In this document: piece by piece, positions 2,882 to 64,000 of the stretch
How the letters are laid out: each line of letters starts with the position of its first letter
How positions within the stretch are numbered: the stretch's first letter is position 1
Source of the DNA: Pyrinomonadaceae bacterium
GTDB lineage: Bacteria; Acidobacteriota; Blastocatellia; Pyrinomonadales; Pyrinomonadaceae
DNA length: 64,000 nt
Assembly: GCA_021228405.1 (NCBI GenBank)
Contig: JAJQRF010000001.1
Span: 744,001-808,000, forward strand
Direction of reading: 5' to 3'
The notes under the pieces: generated by a model
Told to the model about the DNA's origin: nothing
Databases searched by the model: none
What the model saw: only the letters and a program-made list of their open reading frames with translations
Made by a program: the position numbers and the translations under genes

Positions 2882-4798
2882 TTACTCTTTGATAGATTCC
2901 CCTTTCGTGATTTTTTCGCCTTCTCTGACCAGCATTTCTTCGCGTCCTTCGGGTTTAAGTTCGCTTCCCGGTTGCGGAACTTGCGGTGCGCCGCCTTTTT
3001 CGGTTCCGGCGGCTTTCGCTTTGCCTTTTGAATAATCGCGTTTACGCGGTTCGACAAGACTTACGTCAACGGCTTCGTAACTGATGATCGGAGATTCCGC
3101 CGACCATTCGGCGATGGTCGTTTTCATAAACTGCTCATCGTTGCGGTCTGGAAAATCGGGTTTATAATGCGCGCCGCGTGATTCGTCGCGGTTTAGTGCG
3201 CCGAGCGTGATAACCCGTGCGAGTTCAAGCATATTCCACAACTGACGTGCGTGCGGAAGTGCCTGTGTCGCCCACAGATTCGAGTCATTGACCGAGATTT
3301 TTTTGAAACGATCCTGCAATTCGAGAATCTTTTCGTCCGTCGCTTTCAATTTGTCATTGTAACGCACGACGGTGACGTTATCCGTCATCCATTTTCCGAG
3401 TTCATCGTGCAGTTTATACTGGTTTTCCGAACCTTCGTTCTTGATGATCGAATCGTTGATCTCCTGCTGGCGTTTGAGCTCTGCCGCGTGGATTCCGTTC
3501 GTTTCGGTCGATTTGCGTTCGACGTTCTTCGCGTATTCAACCGCCGCCGGACCCGCGACAAAACCGCCGTAAACGCAGGATACGAGCGAATTTGCGCCCA
3601 GACGGTTCGCACCGTGGATCGAATAATCGCATTCGCCCGCCGCGAAAAGTCCGGGAATGTTCGTGCGTTGCTCGAAATCAACCCAGAGTCCGCCCATCGA
3701 ATAATGAACGCCGGGGAAAATGCGCATCGGAACATAACGCGGATCGTCGCCGACGAACATCTCGTAAATTTCCAGAATCGCACCGAGTTTGCGTGTCAAA
3801 GTTTCCGCCGGAACGTGAGTCAGGTCGAGATAAACCTGATTTTCGCCGTTTACACCGTAGCCGTCCAGACAAACCTGAAAAATCTCGCGTGTCGCAATGT
3901 CGCGCGGCACGAGATTTCCGTAAGCCGGATATTTCTCTTCAAGGAAATACCAACGTTCATTTGCCGGAATGTCTTTCGGATTGCGCTTGTCGCCTTGATT
4001 TTTCGGAACCCAGACGCGTCCGCCTTCGCCGCGCGCCGATTCACTCATCAAACGGAGTTTGTCCTCGCCCGGAATCGAAGTCGGGTGAACCTGGATAAAT
4101 TCGCCGTTCGCGTATTTCGCGCCCTGCTGATAGGCGGCGGAAACCGCACTGCCCGTGCAGGTTTGCGAATTAGTCGATTTTCCGAAAATAAGTCCGGGTC
4201 CGCCGGTCGCCATAATCACCGCGTCGGCGTTAAATGCTTTGAGTTCGAGCGTTTGCAGATTCATCGCGATCAAACCGCGGCAAACCTGGTGATCGTCCAG
4301 AACGAGCGAAAGCATTTCCCAACCTTCGTATTTATGAACCGTTCCGGCGGCTTCGTATTTGCGAACCTGCTCGTCAAGCCCGTAAAGAAGCTGTTGCCCG
4401 GTCGAAGCTCCGGCAAACGCGGTGCGGTGATGCAAAGTTCCGCCGAAGCGTCGGAAATCGATCAAACCTTCCTGCGTGCGCGAAAACGGAACGCCCATCC
4501 GGTCAAAAAGATAAATGATTTGCGGAGCCATATCGCACATTTGTTTGACAGGCGTTTGGTTCGCCAGAAAGTCGCCGCCGTAAACCGTGTCGTCCAGATG
4601 TTTCGCGGGCGAATCGCCTTCGCCTTTCGTATTTACCGCGCCGTTGATTCCGCCCTGTGCGCAAACCGAATGCGAACGTTTGACCGGAACGACCGAGATC
4701 AAATCCACTTCGTGTCCCTGTTCGGCAATTTTCATCGCTGCCGCAAGTCCTGCCAATCCGCCGCCGACAATCGCTATTTTTAATCCGTTTGATGCCAT
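2882..4798 (-). CDS. sdhA: Succinate dehydrogenase/fumarate reductase flavoprotein subunit
   Basis: A 638-residue catalytic subunit oxidising succinate to fumarate. The Rossmann motif VGGGLAG is at residues 11-17, and the covalent-FAD histidine is expected at H43 in RSHSVCAQGG. The active-site regions HPTSIPGEDKL, SARGEGG and HYSMGGLWVD are intact. The last ~55 residues form a charged, Lys/Glu/Pro-rich tail beyond the usual family end, probably flexible; its role is unknown. The gene starts 31 bp after sdhC and is followed by sdhB. A 510-codon open frame on the opposite strand is a shadow of its codon bias. Confidence 0.95.
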   Translation of the reverse strand: MASNGLKIAIVGGGLAGLAAAMKIAEQGHEVDLISVVPVKRSHSVCAQGGINGAVNTKGEGDSPAKHLDDTVYGGDFLANQTPVKQMCDMAPQIIYLFDRMGVPFSRTQEGLIDFRRFGGTLHHRTAFAGASTGQQLLYGLDEQVRKYEAAGTVHKYEGWEMLSLVLDDHQVCRGLIAMNLQTLELKAFNADAVIMATGGPGLIFGKSTNSQTCTGSAVSAAYQQGAKYANGEFIQVHPTSIPGEDKLRLMSESARGEGGRVWVPKNQGDKRNPKDIPANERWYFLEEKYPAYGNLVPRDIATREIFQVCLDGYGVNGENQVYLDLTHVPAETLTRKLGAILEIYEMFVGDDPRYVPMRIFPGVHYSMGGLWVDFEQRTNIPGLFAAGECDYSIHGANRLGANSLVSCVYGGFVAGPAAVEYAKNVERKSTETNGIHAAELKRQQEINDSIIKNEGSENQYKLHDELGKWMTDNVTVVRYNDKLKATDEKILELQDRFKKISVNDSNLWATQALPHARQLWNMLELARVITLGALNRDESRGAHYKPDFPDRNDEQFMKTTIAEWSAESPIISYEAVDVSLVEPRKRDYSKGKAKAAGTEKGGAPQVPQPGSELKPEGREEMLVREGEKITKGESIKE

Positions 4799-4829: not shown

Positions 4830-5555
4830 TTAATAGTTCCCTGTTTTGTTAGGTTCGACCACACCTTTTTTCTCTAATTCGCCGCAAAACGCCTGCGGAA
4901 ACAACCCGCAAGGCTTGACGAAGGCGGCGGCGGCATTGATGCCGACCAAGCCGAGAAAAACCGCCAAACCGATACAAGCATAGAGCGCGTATTTCTGCGC
5001 TTTTTCGCCGATCACGATCCCCCAATCGACGGCAAACAGGAAAAATCCGTAACCCAAATGCCACGCCGTCGAAATAATCCCGAAAATATAAACCAGAAAA
5101 ATTCCCGTATTGCTGAATTCCGCCGAAACGATTGAAAACGCTCTGTGAGCATTTCCGGCAACCGGATTTCCATACGATGCGAGTCCCGGAATCACGCCGA
5201 AACGAAGATTGAGAATATGAAACAGAATAAAGAAAAACAGAAAAACGCCCGTGATACGTTGGAAAATGTAAAACCAGTTGCGCCCGTAGCCGTAATTTCC
5301 GATGTTCGGACGCGCCTCGGACGAGATGACGACCCCGTAAACCGAGTGAAACAACAGCGGCAGAAAGATGCCGAAAACTTCGACGAATAAAAGATACGGA
5401 ATATGATGGATGTCTTCGACCGCGTCATTAAAAACGCTTGCTCCGCTCATCGCTTTTGAATTCGTGAACATATGAACGAAGAAAAATATTCCGAGCGGCA
5501 CGATACCCGTGATCTGATGCAATTTTCTTAACAGAAACGTATTGCTGATTTTCAT
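4830..5555 (-). CDS. sdhC: Succinate dehydrogenase cytochrome b558 subunit
   Basis: A 241-residue integral membrane protein with about five hydrophobic helices and several histidines in helices (RKLHQITG, FVHMFTN, LLFHSVYG, LFHILN, AWHLGYG). This pattern matches the diheme b558-type anchor of the Bacillus and Bacteroides succinate:menaquinone oxidoreductases. It replaces separate SdhC and SdhD subunits, consistent with no sdhD in the operon. First gene of sdhCAB, preceded by a good sigma-70-type promoter. Confidence 0.9.
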   Translation of the reverse strand: MKISNTFLLRKLHQITGIVPLGIFFFVHMFTNSKAMSGASVFNDAVEDIHHIPYLLFVEVFGIFLPLLFHSVYGVVISSEARPNIGNYGYGRNWFYIFQRITGVFLFFFILFHILNLRFGVIPGLASYGNPVAGNAHRAFSIVSAEFSNTGIFLVYIFGIISTAWHLGYGFFLFAVDWGIVIGEKAQKYALYACIGLAVFLGLVGINAAAAFVKPCGLFPQAFCGELEKKGVVEPNKTGNY

Positions 5556-57949: not shown

Positions 57950-58510
57950 ATGTCTGAAAAACCGATCACACAATTGCTTCAGGAATTGCGAAAAGGAGAG
58001 CGTCAAACTCTGGATGAAATACTGCCTTTGGTTTATGACGAGCTTCGCAGATTGGCTAAAAATTATCTGAACCGCGAAAGGTCGAATCACACTTTGCAAC
58101 CGACCGCATTAGTTCACGAAGCATATTTGAGATTGATCGGGCAGAAAGAGATCGAATGGCAAAACCGCGCACATTTTTTCGGTGTTTCGGCGCGGTTGAT
58201 GCGCGAGATTTTGATCGAACACGCGCGCGGACGAAACCGCCAGAAACGCGGCGGCGAATTCAAAACGCAGATCGCGCTCGACGAAAACATCAGCTTTGCC
58301 CAACAAAACCAACTCGATGTCGTCGCGGTTGACGACGCGCTCTCAAAACTCGAAAAACTCGATGAAAGACAAGCACGAATCGTTGAAATGAAATTTTTCG
58401 GCGGTTTGACGATTGAAGAAATCAGCGAAGTCCTGAGCATTTCTCCCGCCACCGTCAAACGCGAATGGTCAAGCGCGAAACTCTTTCTCTATAAAACTTT
58501 AGAAGATTAA
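57950..58510 (+). CDS. ECF-subfamily RNA polymerase sigma factor
   Basis: A 186-residue sigma factor of the acidobacterial/planctomycete ECF type. Region 2 is at about 20-95 (LVYDELRRLAKNYL, HTLQPTALVHEAYLRL) and region 4 at about 130-185 (ARIVEMKFFGGLTIEEIS, SPATVKREWSSAKLFL). It is separated by 3 bp from a TPR Ser/Thr kinase gene, a pairing typical of these phyla, where phosphorylation may replace an anti-sigma factor (inference). Candidate target promoters lie directly upstream on the other strand. Confidence 0.92.
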   Translation: MSEKPITQLLQELRKGERQTLDEILPLVYDELRRLAKNYLNRERSNHTLQPTALVHEAYLRLIGQKEIEWQNRAHFFGVSARLMREILIEHARGRNRQKRGGEFKTQIALDENISFAQQNQLDVVAVDDALSKLEKLDERQARIVEMKFFGGLTIEEISEVLSISPATVKREWSSAKLFLYKTLED

Positions 58511-58513
58511 TTT

Positions 58514-61213
58514 ATGGACGCGGAACGCTGGCATAAAATAAAAAACATTCTCGAAACCGTCCTCGAAACTGCGCCCGAATCGCGTTTTGTTTATCTGGAT
58601 GAGGTCTGCGGAACCGATAAAGATTTACGAAATGAAGTCGAGAAACTGCTCGAATTTGAAAAACCGGACGAAGACATTCTCGAACAGAATCCGGTTTCCG
58701 CTCTTCTGAAAAACGGAAATCTCTCAAGAAACAATATCGGCAGACAGATCGGAAATTACAAAATAATCGGCGAGCTCGGCGCGGGCGGAATGGGGGCGGT
58801 CTTTCTGGCAGAACGCGCCGACGGCGAATTTTCACGGCAGGTCGCGGTAAAACTTATCAAACGCGGAATGGATTCGGACGCGGTTTTGCGCCGTTTTTAC
58901 AATGAACGGCAAATTCTTGCGTCTTTGGAACACCCGAACATCGCACGCCTGATCGACGGCGGAACGACCGGTGACGGGTTGCCGTTTTTCGTTCTGGAAT
59001 ATGTCGAAGGCGCGCCGCTTCCCGAATATTCCGAGGCGGAAAATCTCGATCTCGAAGCGCGTCTGAAACTTTTCCGCGAAGTTTGCGCCGTCGTCAGCTT
59101 CGCCCATCAAAATCTCGTCATTCACCGCGACCTGAAACCGTCGAATATTCTGGTTACAAAAGACGGCAAAGTAAAACTTCTCGATTTCGGGATCGCAAAA
59201 CTTTTAAAATCGAGCGAAACTGACCAAACGGCGACGCAATTGCAAATTTTCACGCCCGAATACGCATCGCCCGAACAAGTGCGCGGCGAAAATCTGACGA
59301 CTGCTTCGGACGTTTATTCTTTAGGTGTTATTCTTTACGAACTCTTAACAGGTAATCGTCCATATAAAACCGAAAATCGAAATATCAGCGAAATTATCAG
59401 ATCCGTCTGCGAAACGGAACCGAAACCGCCTTCGGCAACCATTCGGAATTTGGGATTTGGGATTTCGGATTTGAAAAAAACTCTTTCGGGTAATAAAAAA
59501 ACGGATCGCCTGAAGTTGGAAACAAATCCCAAATCCCAAATCCCAAATCCCAAATCCTTAAAGGGCGATCTGGATAATATTATTTTAAAGGCTCTGCGGA
59601 AAGAACCCGAACGGCGTTATTCATCGGTCGAACAATTCAGCGAAGACATTCGCCGTCATCTGGTCGGTTTACCCGTTACGGCGAGCCGTGATACCTGGAA
59701 CTACCGCGCATCTAAATTTTTGCAGAGAAACAAGATCGCAACCGCCGCCGCGTTTTTGATCCTGATTTCACTGTTCGGCGGAATTGCCGCGACCGCCTAT
59801 CAAGCCCGCATCGCCAAACGCGAACGCGAACGTGCCGAACAGCGTTTCAATGATGTTCGGCGGCTCGCCAATTCGTTTATGTTCGAGATCAACGAGCAGA
59901 TCGTCAAAAGTCCGATCAAAGCACGCGAATTGCTTGTCCAGAGAGCCGTCGAATATCTCGACAGCCTCGCTTCGGAAGCCGAAAGCGACATTGCTCTACA
60001 GAGCGAACTGGCGACCGCCTATGAAAAAATCGGCGACGTGCAGGCGGAAATCTTCAAACCGAATCTCGGAAAAACGTCCGACGCGCTTTTAAGTCATCAG
60101 AAAGCCTTACAACTCAGGGAAAAAATCTTTGCCGCCGAGCCGAACTCCGAACGCGGATTGAACGTTGCCAGAAGTCATATACTTATCGGCGATCTTTTGA
60201 TGATGAGCGGACAGATCGAGGAAACTCGCGCAAATTACCGCAAAGCGATTCAGATTCTCGATTCGCTCCTCGTGTCCGATCCGACCAATTTTGCCGTCCG
60301 CCGCAAACTTGCCAGCAGCTACGCCGTTCTCGGACAGGCGATCTTACGGAGCGGTTCGCTCAAACAGGCACTTGAAAATTATGAAATGTCGCTTGAGAGT
60401 TTTCAAAAACTTCGCGCCGAAAATCCGCAGGATTCATCGCTCGAACGTTCCGTCGGAATCGTTTTTTCATACATCGGTTTCGTTAAAATGGAAACCGACG
60501 AGAAAGATAAAGCTGTCGAATTTTACGGGAAATGGCTGGAAACCGAAAAAAAATTGTCGTCTGTCGACCAAAATGATCTCGCTTCGCGCGGTCATCTGGC
60601 GACGGCAAATACCTGGTATGGAATCGCGCTGAACGAAAACGGAAGATCGCGCGAAGCAATTTCTTATTTGAAAGAAGGCTTGAAAATTCAGGAAGAAATT
60701 TACAGATCGGACACGGAAAATTTTGGTGAAAGAACCGCGCTTGCCGATGCCAATCTCGAACTCGGCAAGGTTTTGTTAAAGAATAATCTGACCGGTGAGG
60801 CGACAAAAACGCTCGAACAAGCGATCTCTCACTATGAAGCGATTTGGCAAACCGACCGCGAAAATCTGTGGAATCGGCGGCGCATTCCCGTTTCGCAGAG
60901 ATTTCTTGCCGACGCTTTTTTGCAGAAAAATGATTTGAGAAAAGCTTCGGAAATCTACCGTCAATCGTTTGCCGTCACCAAAGAACTGACCGATGCTTAT
61001 TCTGATTATTCCGAATGGCAACTCGATCTGGCAATGATCCATCGGCAGTTAGGAAAGTTTTATTTAATGACTAACGACAAAGCTACCGCTCTAAAAAATT
61101 TCGAGCAATCCTTACCGATATTTCAAAGATTATCGGCAGAATCGCCCGAAAATGCGAACCGTAAACGCGATCTGGAAACGGTTAAAGCTGAGATCGCAAA
61201 ATTAACCGACTAA
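58514..61213 (+). CDS. Membrane Ser/Thr protein kinase with TPR sensor domain
   Basis: An 899-residue Hanks-type kinase (about 82-370), with GELGAGGMGAV, VAVKLIK, HRDLKPSN (about 203) and LLDFGIAK intact. A membrane helix (about 405-430) follows, then an extracytoplasmic TPR domain to the end. In the kinase C-lobe, between KPPSATIR and KGDLDNIILKAL, about 35 residues are encoded by an inverted array of 7-bp repeats (59445-59558). It follows the ECF sigma gene by 3 bp. The stop codon overlaps that of an aminotransferase remnant on the other strand. Confidence 0.93.
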   Translation: MDAERWHKIKNILETVLETAPESRFVYLDEVCGTDKDLRNEVEKLLEFEKPDEDILEQNPVSALLKNGNLSRNNIGRQIGNYKIIGELGAGGMGAVFLAERADGEFSRQVAVKLIKRGMDSDAVLRRFYNERQILASLEHPNIARLIDGGTTGDGLPFFVLEYVEGAPLPEYSEAENLDLEARLKLFREVCAVVSFAHQNLVIHRDLKPSNILVTKDGKVKLLDFGIAKLLKSSETDQTATQLQIFTPEYASPEQVRGENLTTASDVYSLGVILYELLTGNRPYKTENRNISEIIRSVCETEPKPPSATIRNLGFGISDLKKTLSGNKKTDRLKLETNPKSQIPNPKSLKGDLDNIILKALRKEPERRYSSVEQFSEDIRRHLVGLPVTASRDTWNYRASKFLQRNKIATAAAFLILISLFGGIAATAYQARIAKRERERAEQRFNDVRRLANSFMFEINEQIVKSPIKARELLVQRAVEYLDSLASEAESDIALQSELATAYEKIGDVQAEIFKPNLGKTSDALLSHQKALQLREKIFAAEPNSERGLNVARSHILIGDLLMMSGQIEETRANYRKAIQILDSLLVSDPTNFAVRRKLASSYAVLGQAILRSGSLKQALENYEMSLESFQKLRAENPQDSSLERSVGIVFSYIGFVKMETDEKDKAVEFYGKWLETEKKLSSVDQNDLASRGHLATANTWYGIALNENGRSREAISYLKEGLKIQEEIYRSDTENFGERTALADANLELGKVLLKNNLTGEATKTLEQAISHYEAIWQTDRENLWNRRRIPVSQRFLADAFLQKNDLRKASEIYRQSFAVTKELTDAYSDYSEWQLDLAMIHRQLGKFYLMTNDKATALKNFEQSLPIFQRLSAESPENANRKRDLETVKAEIAKLTD
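59445..59558. repeat. 7-bp inverted repeat array inside the kinase gene
   Basis: GGAATTT, GGGATTT, GGGATTT and CGGATTT (59445-59472) face four AAATCCC units and AAATCCT (59524-59558). The array is in frame and translates to NPKSQIPNPKS-type residues. Confidence 0.88.
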
Positions 61214-61267
61214 CAATTTAGAGCTCCTTTCATCCGCCGAATGCCTTCTGCCATTCTCTCTTCCGTA
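61210..61267 (-). pseudogene. Remnant of the aminotransferase 3' end
   Basis: The minus strand reads TEERMAEGIRRMKGALNC-stop, nearly the same as the C-terminus of the intact aminotransferase (TEERMAEGIRRMKEALMI). 61227-61267 is identical over 41 bases to 62930-62970. It lies 5 bp from the stop codon of the SecB-like gene and marks the left edge of the inserted cassette. Confidence 0.85.
61227..61267. repeat. Left 41-bp direct repeat flanking the TAC cassette
   Basis: Identical to 62930-62970. A 10-bp word ATTTAGAGCT occurs on either side of it (61216-61225 and 61275-61284), the second within the end of the SecB-like gene. Confidence 0.9.
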
Positions 61268-61272
61268 AAGTT

Positions 61273-61758
61273 TTATTTAGAGCTTTTTTTTGTGCGAATA
61301 GCTTTGCCTTTTGTTATTTTTGAACTTTCACTCTTCTGGTGTTCTGTATCAACTTCGAGAAATGTCACCGAAGGAATCAAAACAGGTGCGAAAGGGCTTC
61401 TTCGCACAACCGTCACCAACATTTCCCTCGCCGTCGAGTAAAGAACTGCCGGACAATTGGTTTTTGCCAATAATTCAACCATATCTTTTGGATAATCTTT
61501 TGAAATAAAAAAGAACCCGACTAAAATCAAATGAAAAGTATAAGCTTCCGTAGCCTTATCTTTTGGTTTTAAGTCAAGTGTCAATTCACAACGCCAACGA
61601 CGTTTTCGCTTATCAATACATTCTACCGAAGTGGAAACCTCAACTCCGAGATTCTCTGATTTTTTTAACTCGGTCGGCTTTTCAGTAATTTCTTCGTTTA
61701 GTGAAAAAGAAACTTCTTTTAGGAAATACCCCTCAAGCTGTAGTGATGAAAATTGCAT
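61273..61758 (-). CDS. SecB-like chaperone of a toxin-antitoxin-chaperone system
   Basis: A 161-residue protein with the SecB fold pattern: an N-terminal strand LEGYFLKEVSFSL, a central strand pair with LTLDLKPKDK, and the SecB-typical C-terminal stretch KTNCPAVLYSTAREM...RRSPFAPVLIPSVTF. The C-terminus is basic (KAIRTKKSSK). It lies 6 bp after an MqsA-type antitoxin gene, so it is taken as the TAC chaperone that protects the antitoxin, rather than a general export SecB. AT-rich compared with the neighbouring kinase. Confidence 0.82.
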   Translation of the reverse strand: MQFSSLQLEGYFLKEVSFSLNEEITEKPTELKKSENLGVEVSTSVECIDKRKRRWRCELTLDLKPKDKATEAYTFHLILVGFFFISKDYPKDMVELLAKTNCPAVLYSTAREMLVTVVRRSPFAPVLIPSVTFLEVDTEHQKSESSKITKGKAIRTKKSSK

Positions 61759-61764
61759 ATAAAA

Positions 61765-62448
61765 TTAAGCAGCAAGAGCCAACTCTTGATTATTAACTCT
61801 TGCTGTTAAAGATCGAAACGGTTGACCGTTCTTTTCTTCAAATGGCATCAATTTTTCGATTTCACTTAAAAATGAACTAGATGAATCTAATTCAAAATCG
61901 AATGTTTCAGTCTTCCAATTTTGACTTTCTGCCAGATGCAGTGCTTTGGTAAAAGCCATATAAGCATAATTTTCAATCTGCTCAACATCAATAACTATCG
62001 CCATATTTTCTTCTGTCATCTCAGACAGATTTTCAGCAACTTTTTTCTCGATTCGCAATTCTTTCCTTTCTTCCAACAAACGAAGATAAAGATAGCGAAT
62101 GAGCAAATCGGACTGCGGACTAATGCGTTGAGAATCATTTTCCCAACGCGAATACACACTTTTGTCAGTGCGAAGAAGTTTTGCCCAATCCTGCGATTTA
62201 ATTCTTAAATTCTTTCTCAAAAACTTAATTTCTGCTCCGTTTAATAAGCTATTTTTACAGACGAGCGCAAATCCAATCGTATTGTGCAGTTTTAAAATTT
62301 TTGGAATAATTGGAATCTGTATTCCACATTCTATACAAGAAAACACCTCGATATTGTCCAAAAAGATATTTCCTAACCCTGATTCAATGTATTGATATTT
62401 CTGAGCTTTATTTACCGTCATTTCCTTCAGGCAGTTTTCACACTTCAT
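61765..62448 (-). CDS. MqsA-type antitoxin with zinc finger and HTH
   Basis: A 227-residue antitoxin. An N-terminal YgiT-type zinc finger has CENC at 3-6 and CIEC about 33 residues later. A Cro/XRE-type helix-turn-helix follows at about 78-115 (KSQDWAKLLRTDKSVYSRWEN). The long C-terminal region (about 130-227) ends in a hydrophobic-alanine tail (NNQELALAA) and may be the chaperone-dependent (ChAD) segment. The ribosome binding site AAAGGA overlaps the toxin stop. It probably binds the toxin and autoregulates through the palindrome upstream. Confidence 0.85.
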   Translation of the reverse strand: MKCENCLKEMTVNKAQKYQYIESGLGNIFLDNIEVFSCIECGIQIPIIPKILKLHNTIGFALVCKNSLLNGAEIKFLRKNLRIKSQDWAKLLRTDKSVYSRWENDSQRISPQSDLLIRYLYLRLLEERKELRIEKKVAENLSEMTEENMAIVIDVEQIENYAYMAFTKALHLAESQNWKTETFDFELDSSSSFLSEIEKLMPFEEKNGQPFRSLTARVNNQELALAA

Positions 62449-62454
62449 ATATAT

Positions 62455-62766
62455 TCATCCTTTTACGGTAATTATTTTTAATTGCCAGTCTTTCTCTATT
62501 ATTGCCGTGACGACTATTAATTTCTCGTCCTCAATATCGAACCCTTCAACATTACATACCCAATTTTGATGATCTTCACTCCATTCAGGGATGCGTTTTA
62601 TTTCACCGTTTTCCAAAACTTCAATTACATCTGTCATTGGCGCGTTTCTTAGGTTTCTTCGGTCACTGTTGTAGTGATAGGTCGGTATAATATCACCGTC
62701 ATTATGAAGAATCTTTAAAATTTTTTCTTTCGCATCTTCAGGGGAAAGTTGCGGAGGTTGTGCCAT
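62455..62766 (-). CDS. Putative toxin, MqsR/DUF4258-like
   Basis: A 103-residue protein with the sequence pattern of RelE-superfamily DUF4258/MqsR proteins: an N-terminal helix (DAKEKILKIL), RRNLRNAPMTDVIEVLENGEI in the centre, and a C-terminal strand pair LIVVTAIIEKDWQLKIITV. First gene of the three-gene operon, in toxin-antitoxin-chaperone order. The likely activity is mRNA cleavage, inferred from family and context; the fold match is distant. Confidence 0.7.
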   Translation of the reverse strand: MAQPPQLSPEDAKEKILKILHNDGDIIPTYHYNSDRRNLRNAPMTDVIEVLENGEIKRIPEWSEDHQNWVCNVEGFDIEDEKLIVVTAIIEKDWQLKIITVKG

Positions 62767-62833
62767 AAAATTATGTTTCCTTCAAATTTACGGTTTCTCT
62801 TCGAGCGGAAAGTCATAGCAGAATTTTCTCCCA

Positions 62834-62889
62834 ATTATAAATTGCCATTTGTGTAAACATATTGTCAACATAAATTGACAATATGTCAA
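62834..62889 (-). promoter_or_regulatory. Promoter and palindromic operator of the TAC operon
   Basis: An 11-bp perfect inverted repeat CATATTGTCAA / TTGACAATATG (62858-62868 / 62875-62885), plus a third TGTCAA at 62884-62889. On the minus strand two TTGACA boxes occur inside it and a TATAAT lies at 62839-62834. The array fits autoregulation by the antitoxin; the exact -35 is unclear. Confidence 0.65.
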
Positions 62890-62912
62890 CTTTTCTCCGA
62901 AAATCTTCTACT

Positions 62913-64000
62913 TTAAATCATCAAAGCTTCTTTCATCCGCCGAATGCCTTCTGCCATTCTCTCTTCCGTATTGCAGAATGAAACGCGCAAAAAGCCTTTT
63001 GCTTCCGAGCCGAATGCAACGCCGGGAACGGTGATAATGCGGTTTTGCAGGAATTTTTCGGCAATTTCGAGATCGTCGCCAAGCGGACGCACATCGACCA
63101 TCGTATAAAATGCGCCTTCGGGCGATGTGGCGTGTAAGCCTAATTCCGTTTTGAACAACCCGACCAGATATTCGCCGCGTTTTTTATAGATTTCACGCGC
63201 CTCGGCTTTCGCTTTTTCGGCTTCGTCCGTCCAACCCAAAAGCGCGGCTTTTTGTGAGATCGTCGAAGTGCAAACCGTCAAAAATCCGTGCAGTGTCAGG
63301 CACGCTTTGATAACTTCCGTCTGCGAGCTTGCCACCCAACCGACGCGCCAACCCGTCATACTCAAAGATTTCGACAACCCCGAAACGATCACGGTTCTAT
63401 CGTAAAACTCCGAAGCCGAATGCGGTTTTCCGGTAAAATAAAGATCGCTGTAAATTTCATCGGAGATCAGGTAAATTCCCGTATCCTTCAAAACTTCGGC
63501 AATCGCAGTTAAATCTTTTTCCGTAAATATTTTACCGGTCGGATTTGACGGTGAAATGACGACTGCAACTTTTGTTTTCGGCGTTATTTTCGATTTGAAT
63601 TCCTCAATATCGAACGCAAAACCCTTGTCAGCCGGAAGCCTGTAGAAAACAGGTTCGCCGCCGGAAAGCCTGACACAATTTTCATATGCCGGAAACGAAG
63701 GATTCGGAATCAAAACCTCGTCGCCTTCGTCAACTAGAGCCAGAAAAGCCGCCGTCATCGCTTCCTGTGAACCGACGGTCACGCAGACCTGATTCACGTT
63801 TAAATTCAAATGCGGATAACTCGCCGCGATCTTTTCGCGAAGAGCTAAAAGTCCGGCGTGAGAGGTGTAGCCGTTTTGTTCTTCGACGGCGACACGCGCC
63901 GCCTCTTCGCGCATAAATTGCGGTGTCGGGAGATCAGGTTCGCCGAGTCCGAAATTGATCGATTCGGGCAGAGCACGTTCAAAAATCTGCCGAATCAGCG
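62913..64000 (-). CDS. Class I/II pyridoxal-phosphate aminotransferase (5' end outside window)
   Basis: At least 362 residues of an aspartate/aromatic-type aminotransferase. The PLP lysine is in SGLSKSLSMTGWRVGW; other motifs are SPSNPTGKIF and GLGEPDLPTPQF at the incoming end. The reading frame continues past 64000, so the start is not seen. Its last ~19 codons lie in a 41-bp repeat shared with a remnant at 61.2 kb, so the present 3' end (KEALMI) was probably supplied by the inserted cassette. Substrate not determined. Confidence 0.9.
   Translation of the reverse strand, partial: LIRQIFERALPESINFGLGEPDLPTPQFMREEAARVAVEEQNGYTSHAGLLALREKIAASYPHLNLNVNQVCVTVGSQEAMTAAFLALVDEGDEVLIPNPSFPAYENCVRLSGGEPVFYRLPADKGFAFDIEEFKSKITPKTKVAVVISPSNPTGKIFTEKDLTAIAEVLKDTGIYLISDEIYSDLYFTGKPHSASEFYDRTVIVSGLSKSLSMTGWRVGWVASSQTEVIKACLTLHGFLTVCTSTISQKAALLGWTDEAEKAKAEAREIYKKRGEYLVGLFKTELGLHATSPEGAFYTMVDVRPLGDDLEIAEKFLQNRIITVPGVAFGSEAKGFLRVSFCNTEERMAEGIRRMKEALMI
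62930..62970. repeat. Right 41-bp direct repeat flanking the TAC cassette
   Basis: Lies within the 3' coding end of the intact aminotransferase and is identical to 61227-61267. The DNA between the two copies (61268-62929) holds only the TAC operon and its control region. Confidence 0.9.

Follow-up and report, generated by a model that had tools for sequence, protein, structure and literature searches.

How did a three-gene toxin-antitoxin-chaperone (TAC) operon of a Pyrinomonadaceae bacterium come to lie between two copies of an aminotransferase gene end, with no visible vehicle beside it? The window analysed is a 64,000-nucleotide stretch of the chromosome (contig JAJQRF010000001.1, positions 744,001 to 808,000). 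Close to its end, a gene for a class I/II aminotransferase (AAT; 62913–63998, minus strand, 5′ end beyond the window; Aminotran_1_2 E 9.2e-66), the orthologues of which are 86–88% identical, converges with a gene for a Ser/Thr kinase with TPR repeats (58514–61213, plus strand). The kinase gene is preceded by a gene for an ECF-like sigma factor (57950–58510, plus strand), which is a conserved partner in genomes with an empty site (L058/L084 and L088). The end of the kinase resembles the kinase ends of relatives, which marks the DNA to the left of the insert as native.

The insert is bounded by direct repeats of 46 bp with one mismatch (61222–61267 and 62925–62970, both read as minus-strand AAT sequence). 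The 41-bp identity between 61227–61267 and 62930–62970 recorded by the first-pass annotation holds as the exact core of these longer repeats. The repeat consists of AAT coding sequence, the two copies share one orientation, and the left, distal copy abuts the end of the convergent kinase gene. The right, gene-proximal copy is the present C-terminus of the aminotransferase, as had been proposed, and reads RRMKEALMI*. The minus strand of the left copy reads RRMKGALNC*, and its TAG stop codon (61210–61212) overlaps the TAA of the kinase (61211–61213) by 2 nt. It belongs to no second, unrelated aminotransferase gene.

The copies part abruptly. Directly after the core they read GAAGCTTTGATGATTTAA and GGAGCTCTAAATTGTTAG, in which three of nine coding bases differ while both still encode [E/G]-A-L; beyond this point they diverge into unrelated short tails, each of which stops after two further codons. 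Since the tails differ directly after the core, the repeats represent a shared core that links two different gene ends; they are not an evenly decayed duplication. Simple duplication followed by drift was rejected, because it would scatter the differences evenly. The probability of a 41-bp match by chance is negligible, and constraint on the protein does not explain the identity at 41 of 41 positions, because the AAT ends of relatives match the core at only 28–34 of them; constraint would thus not have kept an AAT end acquired from elsewhere in the distant past fully identical. A 26-bp core, searched with up to three mismatches, occurs at two places in the entire 5.72-Mb assembly, both at the TAC locus, with no third copy. 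The complete 1.19-Mb contig was also scanned for direct repeat pairs of at least 24 bp spaced 0.3–15 kb apart, and 29 pairs were found. The only other pair with the look of a gene end (1089633/1092786) proved on inspection to be a tandem paralogue; the remaining pairs were classed from the listing alone as intragenic repeats, tandem paralogues, and simple or dispersed repeats.

The site without the insert can be read in relatives. In three Pyrinomonadaceae genomes (L047, L084, and L088; L058 and L084 are one genome), AAT and the orthologous kinase gene converge with no TAC between them, at stop-to-stop distances of 144, 84, and 360 nt, respectively, which is the outcome sought by the comparison that the first-pass annotation had proposed. 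In two further relatives (G023 and G019), AAT and kinase are separated by approximately 8 kb that hold other genes, with no copy of the AAT end around these larger inserts. The distances of 84–360 nt at the empty sites also bear on the claim that the left copy is the old C-terminus of the aminotransferase. That it reads as a second C-terminus with a stop overlapping that of the kinase stands, but because the two stops overlap instead of being separated as at the empty sites, it may not be the untouched old end.

The expectation that other cargo would be found between the same repeats was not borne out. The neighbour of AAT in most of 54 loci is asd or the kinase, and in none of the 54 does a stretch of the AAT end of at least 15 bp recur downstream. 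A DNA search with the region of the left copy in 118 genomes of the family returned only single places outside the source genome. The AAT 3′ end is therefore not otherwise known as an attachment site, and it is the site of a single known event, with no demonstrated hotspot.

The TAC is a foreign insertion, as judged from its composition, its distribution, and the empty sites. The GC content of the cassette is 35.3%, compared with 49.5% for AAT and 47.8% for the kinase, and the change occurs at sharp edges. The DUF4258 toxin was found in two of 119 genomes of the family, including the source genome, and in five of 396 genomes of the phylum sample, where the best relative is 38% identical; SecB is present in six of 162 genomes of the class. 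The low GC content, the rarity of the toxin, and the empty sites together bear out the central proposal of the first-pass annotation, that a TAC cassette was inserted at the AAT 3′ end. The combination of a DUF4258 toxin with a TAC is not unique, as a second one is present in G013 (L064). Plasmid and phage records contained no match to the toxin, and matched the antitoxin only in its helix-turn-helix (HTH) region, at 33–35%. Viral contigs yielded nothing useful for the toxin, antitoxin, or chaperone, and no copy of the repeat core. In the class, five further loci linked to SecB were searched, and none has TAC-bracketing repeats like those of the source locus. Longer repeats occur at L078 and short ones elsewhere.

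Between the repeats lie 1.66 kb with three minus-strand genes in the order toxin, antitoxin, chaperone, together with a promoter and operator region, which agrees with the earlier description of a TAC operon and its operator and nothing else. The first gene (62455–62766, minus strand) encodes a 103-residue DUF4258 toxin (PF14076 E 4.2e-8, over the cut-off), and all five aligned members fit the DUF4258 family. A single-sequence structure prediction of the toxin had a mean pLDDT of 41.7 and was set aside, and a search of its profile against PDB sequences gave no credible match. The second gene (61765–62448, minus strand) encodes an MqsA/YgiT-type antitoxin of 227 residues, the profile scores of which fall below the cut-offs, slightly so for TIGR03830 (E 2.3e-15; 56.5 versus the curated 61.8 bits) and also for Pfam MqsA_antitoxin (E 1.8e-5). 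The antitoxin is composed of a zinc finger, an HTH, and a C-terminal extension ending in NNQELALAA, and is longer than the homologues without SecB, which have 166–179 residues. DUF4258 and MqsA-family genes occur as a pair without SecB in L221–L223. The third gene (61273–61758, minus strand) encodes a SecB-like chaperone of 161 residues (Pfam SecB E 5.7e-12, 46.2 bits versus a cut-off of 26; PADLOC PD-T4-9_C E 2.3e-6), the sole SecB found in its own genome. The gene appears complete, since the C-terminus of the chaperone is rich in lysine, like those of other SecB-like genes of the class. Its stop codon lies 5 nt from the left copy. At the other end of the operon, an inverted repeat (ACATATTGTCAA / TTGACAATATGT, 62857–62886) is a putative operator for the antitoxin and overlaps a minus-strand, sigma-70-like promoter (TTGACA at 62889; the second hexamer ends at 62861), recognised by match to a consensus.

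The operon shares a three-gene layout and a SecB-like chaperone with HigBAC of Mycobacterium tuberculosis, MqsRA-type TACs, and CmdTAC (PD-T4-9). It also has the toxin-antitoxin-chaperone order and the C-terminal extension of the antitoxin, which in the insert ends in LAA. It differs from these systems in its DUF4258 toxin. CmdA shares with other TAC antitoxins a terminal LAA, which ClpXP recognises; it is degraded via ClpP when not shielded by its SecB-like chaperone, from which a phage capsid protein can displace it by taking the chaperone's place at risk of proteolysis (PMC11618068). Chaperone addiction acts through the C-terminal region of the antitoxin, including in MqsRA systems (PMC5105189). 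By this analogy, the extension ending in NNQELALAA is likely a region of chaperone addiction whose terminal LAA is of the ClpXP type, and the insert probably serves in anti-phage defence. The chaperone would shield the antitoxin from proteolysis, and the antitoxin would silence both the toxin and the operon. Capture of the chaperone by a phage protein would then release the toxin, which is probably an RNase. A survey lists DUF4258 among the type II toxin families with a BECR fold, notes that such toxins are still undescribed, and records DUF4258-MqsA fusions (PMC11980606). An RNase toxin released upon infection is thus expected from the analogies to CmdTAC, MqsRA, and the BECR fold of DUF4258. 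The insert is a TAC whose toxin family is undescribed for TACs in the literature searched.

No integrase is encoded between the repeats, where the three TAC genes are the only ones. The nearest tyrosine recombinase on the contig is approximately 62 kb away, and the genome contains 11 matches to PF00589. Two integrase elements on contig C19 are located at tRNA-Lys and tRNA-Arg genes, have repeats of 49 and 46 bp, and span 6.4 and 11.4 kb, respectively. Like the AAT insert, they have 46–49-bp direct repeats at gene ends, but they differ in their size, their tRNA-gene sites, and the possession of their own integrase. Integrases leaving repeats of 46–49 bp have worked in this genome, which is not evidence that one of them acted at AAT. 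The absence of a third copy of the core argues against a resident helper that uses this att sequence. For integrase arm sites, only 5 nt remain at one edge of the insert, and at the other edge only the promoter region of approximately 160 nt. As a recombinase site within the core, the best inverted repeat (GAATGGC/GGCATTC, six of seven pairs) was rejected as too weak, since nine of 200 shuffled sequences reach the same score. The 10-bp word ATTTAGAGCT does occur on both sides of the left copy (61216–61225 and 61275–61284), where it had been suggested to record the junction; it is weak evidence for this, because a shared word of at least 10 bp was found in 185 of 20,000 neighbouring windows of equal size, approximately 1% by chance.

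Site-specific integration by an integrase that is absent or was lost is the best, although unproven, reading of the locus, with transformation-type recombination as its main rival. The first-pass annotation had offered site-specific or homology-driven integration without an integrase; the insertion and the missing integrase stand, and site-specific integration, decay of a larger element, and transformation-type recombination are the candidate mechanisms. In its specific form, we hold by a slight balance of probability that the TAC was inserted through a single reciprocal exchange between the AAT end and an att-like sequence, with the integrase supplied in trans or with a larger element subsequently trimmed to a CIME-like relic. 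Horizontally acquired DNA carrying the TAC would have borne an att-like sequence near-identical to the AAT gene end, and a Campbell-type exchange at the AAT 3′ end, of the kind performed by integrases, would have joined the two. The aminotransferase would now take its C-terminus from the incoming copy (EALMI*), and the displaced end (GALNC*) would adjoin the kinase. An attB × attP exchange fits the repeats, because their core is common to two sites with different outer parts, and the empty junctions in the three relatives also favour it, as do the identity of the copies over 41 bp, the sharp-edged low GC content, the TAC profile matches with the LALAA end of the antitoxin, and the tRNA-gene elements of this genome, the repeats of which are of similar size. 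Against it stand the lack of an integrase in the unit, of a repeated AAT end in the 54 loci, and of a third copy of the core, the little room for arm sites, and the weak inverted repeat; moreover, the kinase-AAT spacing of the empty sites is not kept at the source locus.

That loss of spacing leaves room for transformation, in which a joint inside the recipient gene end can leave the same pattern of core and tails. Homology-facilitated illegitimate recombination would start from the uptake of a fragment of a relative's DNA carrying AAT and TAC. A homologous joint would form within AAT, and the far end would be joined with little or no homology to a point 46 bp short of where the conserved part of the recipient AAT ends, so that the left copy would be the leftover end. 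No integrase is required, the 54 AAT loci hold no other element at the site, and the repeat ends where AAT tails vary among relatives. The left copy begins 5 nt past the SecB stop, and no clear recombinase-like motif marks this junction. However, the explanation needs a donor that already carried a TAC at its AAT end, which merely shifts the problem, and none was found; it also makes the match in length to the repeats of the genome's integrase elements a coincidence. We regard it as unlikely.

The reciprocal exchange has a branch in which the insert is a decayed integrase-bearing island, a CIME in the strict sense, with a deletion that left the TAC between attL and attR. CIMEs lose their integration and transfer genes and keep attL and attR (PMC5704250), and the small elements with 46–49-bp repeats provide a precedent in this genome. 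The insert resembles CIMEs in the gene-end repeats, candidates for attL and attR, around cargo without integration or transfer genes (PMC5704250), but it is only 1.66 kb long, shows no trace of a former integrase, and has no related integrative element known at its site; no ancestral ICE or IME was found. No remnant of other genes is present, and one endpoint of the deletion would need to fall 5 nt from the SecB stop codon. The branch is rather doubtful, and the present data do not distinguish it from integration in trans.

Integration in trans would make the insert what the first-pass annotation called a minimal defence cargo, and this is possible. Hitcher elements depend on the enzymes of another element, as the insert would, and differ from it in that here no helper was identified and the core occurs nowhere else in the genome (PMC11389934). 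The more specific proposal, that the insert is a very small defence hitcher with a DUF4258 TAC, in which a promoter and three-gene unit of 1.7 kb carries only an att-like host gene end and is inserted at protein-coding genes by the integrases of other elements, is improbable.

Two explanations fare worse. A 46-bp target-site duplication from a transposition-like insertion would account for copies that differ by one mismatch in 46 bp, but duplications of this length are unusual, the TAC unit has no transposase, and past the repeat the right copy continues to encode an AAT-like end, all of which makes it very improbable. An assembly artefact is hardly credible, since the locus, judged from assembled sequence, is embedded in a contig of 1.19 Mb, its open reading frames are intact, its GC content is coherent, and it is flanked left and right by natural gene ends.

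The locus is a clean case of a single defence module entering a chromosome without a visible vehicle, with a legible record of the two junctions, the empty site, and the displaced gene end. Proof of integration in trans would help to explain the scatter of isolated TACs and other small defence modules between genomes. By analogy to the known TACs, the locus would also place DUF4258, for which no toxin activity has been described, in a directly testable chaperone-controlled system.

The interval between the aminotransferase gene, the 3' end of which is duplicated in the window, and the convergent Ser/Thr kinase gene is variable among relatives. In two relatives, approximately 8 kb of other genes, encoding a sigma factor, kinases, and other proteins, separate the aminotransferase and kinase genes (L059, 2158–10465; L060, 2743–10659), and no repeats of the aminotransferase gene end were found within these two gaps. 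The kinase gene of the window contains a 33-nt inverted repeat with arms at 59441–59473 and 59523–59555, which are 91% complementary and built of the heptamer repeats GGGATTT and AAATCCC. The heptamer repeat is translated in frame as SQIPNPKS, and it looks like a dispersed repeat inserted into the kinase domain region.

The SecB-linked locus L078, from another family, could be a second repeat-bounded toxin-antitoxin-chaperone (TAC) operon. Its TAC-like genes (~3462–4713) are enclosed by a 26-bp direct repeat at 1175 and 5408 and by a neighbouring 23-bp pair with equal spacing, and 43-bp direct repeats are located nearby, at 5312 and 8447.

Contig C19 of the source genome carries two integrase-bearing elements at tRNA genes. 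The 6.4-kb element (L215, 147–6652) sits at a tRNA-Lys gene with a repeat of 49 bp, and the 11.4-kb element (L217, 491–11939) at tRNA-Arg with one of 46 bp. The latter contains two large ORFs of 880 and 632 residues, candidates for a restriction-modification system; the shorter has a methyltransferase-like DPPF motif.

Antitoxin-like genes adjoin SecB-like genes in L078 and three further SecB-linked loci (L064, L075, and L076), the partners being otherwise different. The C-termini of these antitoxin-like proteins are LAA-like (LALAA, LAVAA, and SVAA; that of L064 is LAPCA), in keeping with what would be expected of antitoxins sensitive to ClpXP. Loci L221–L223 encode DUF4258 and MqsA-family pairs without SecB, the antitoxins of which are shorter, at 166–179 residues; these pairs are the natural two-component counterpart of the TAC operon in the window.
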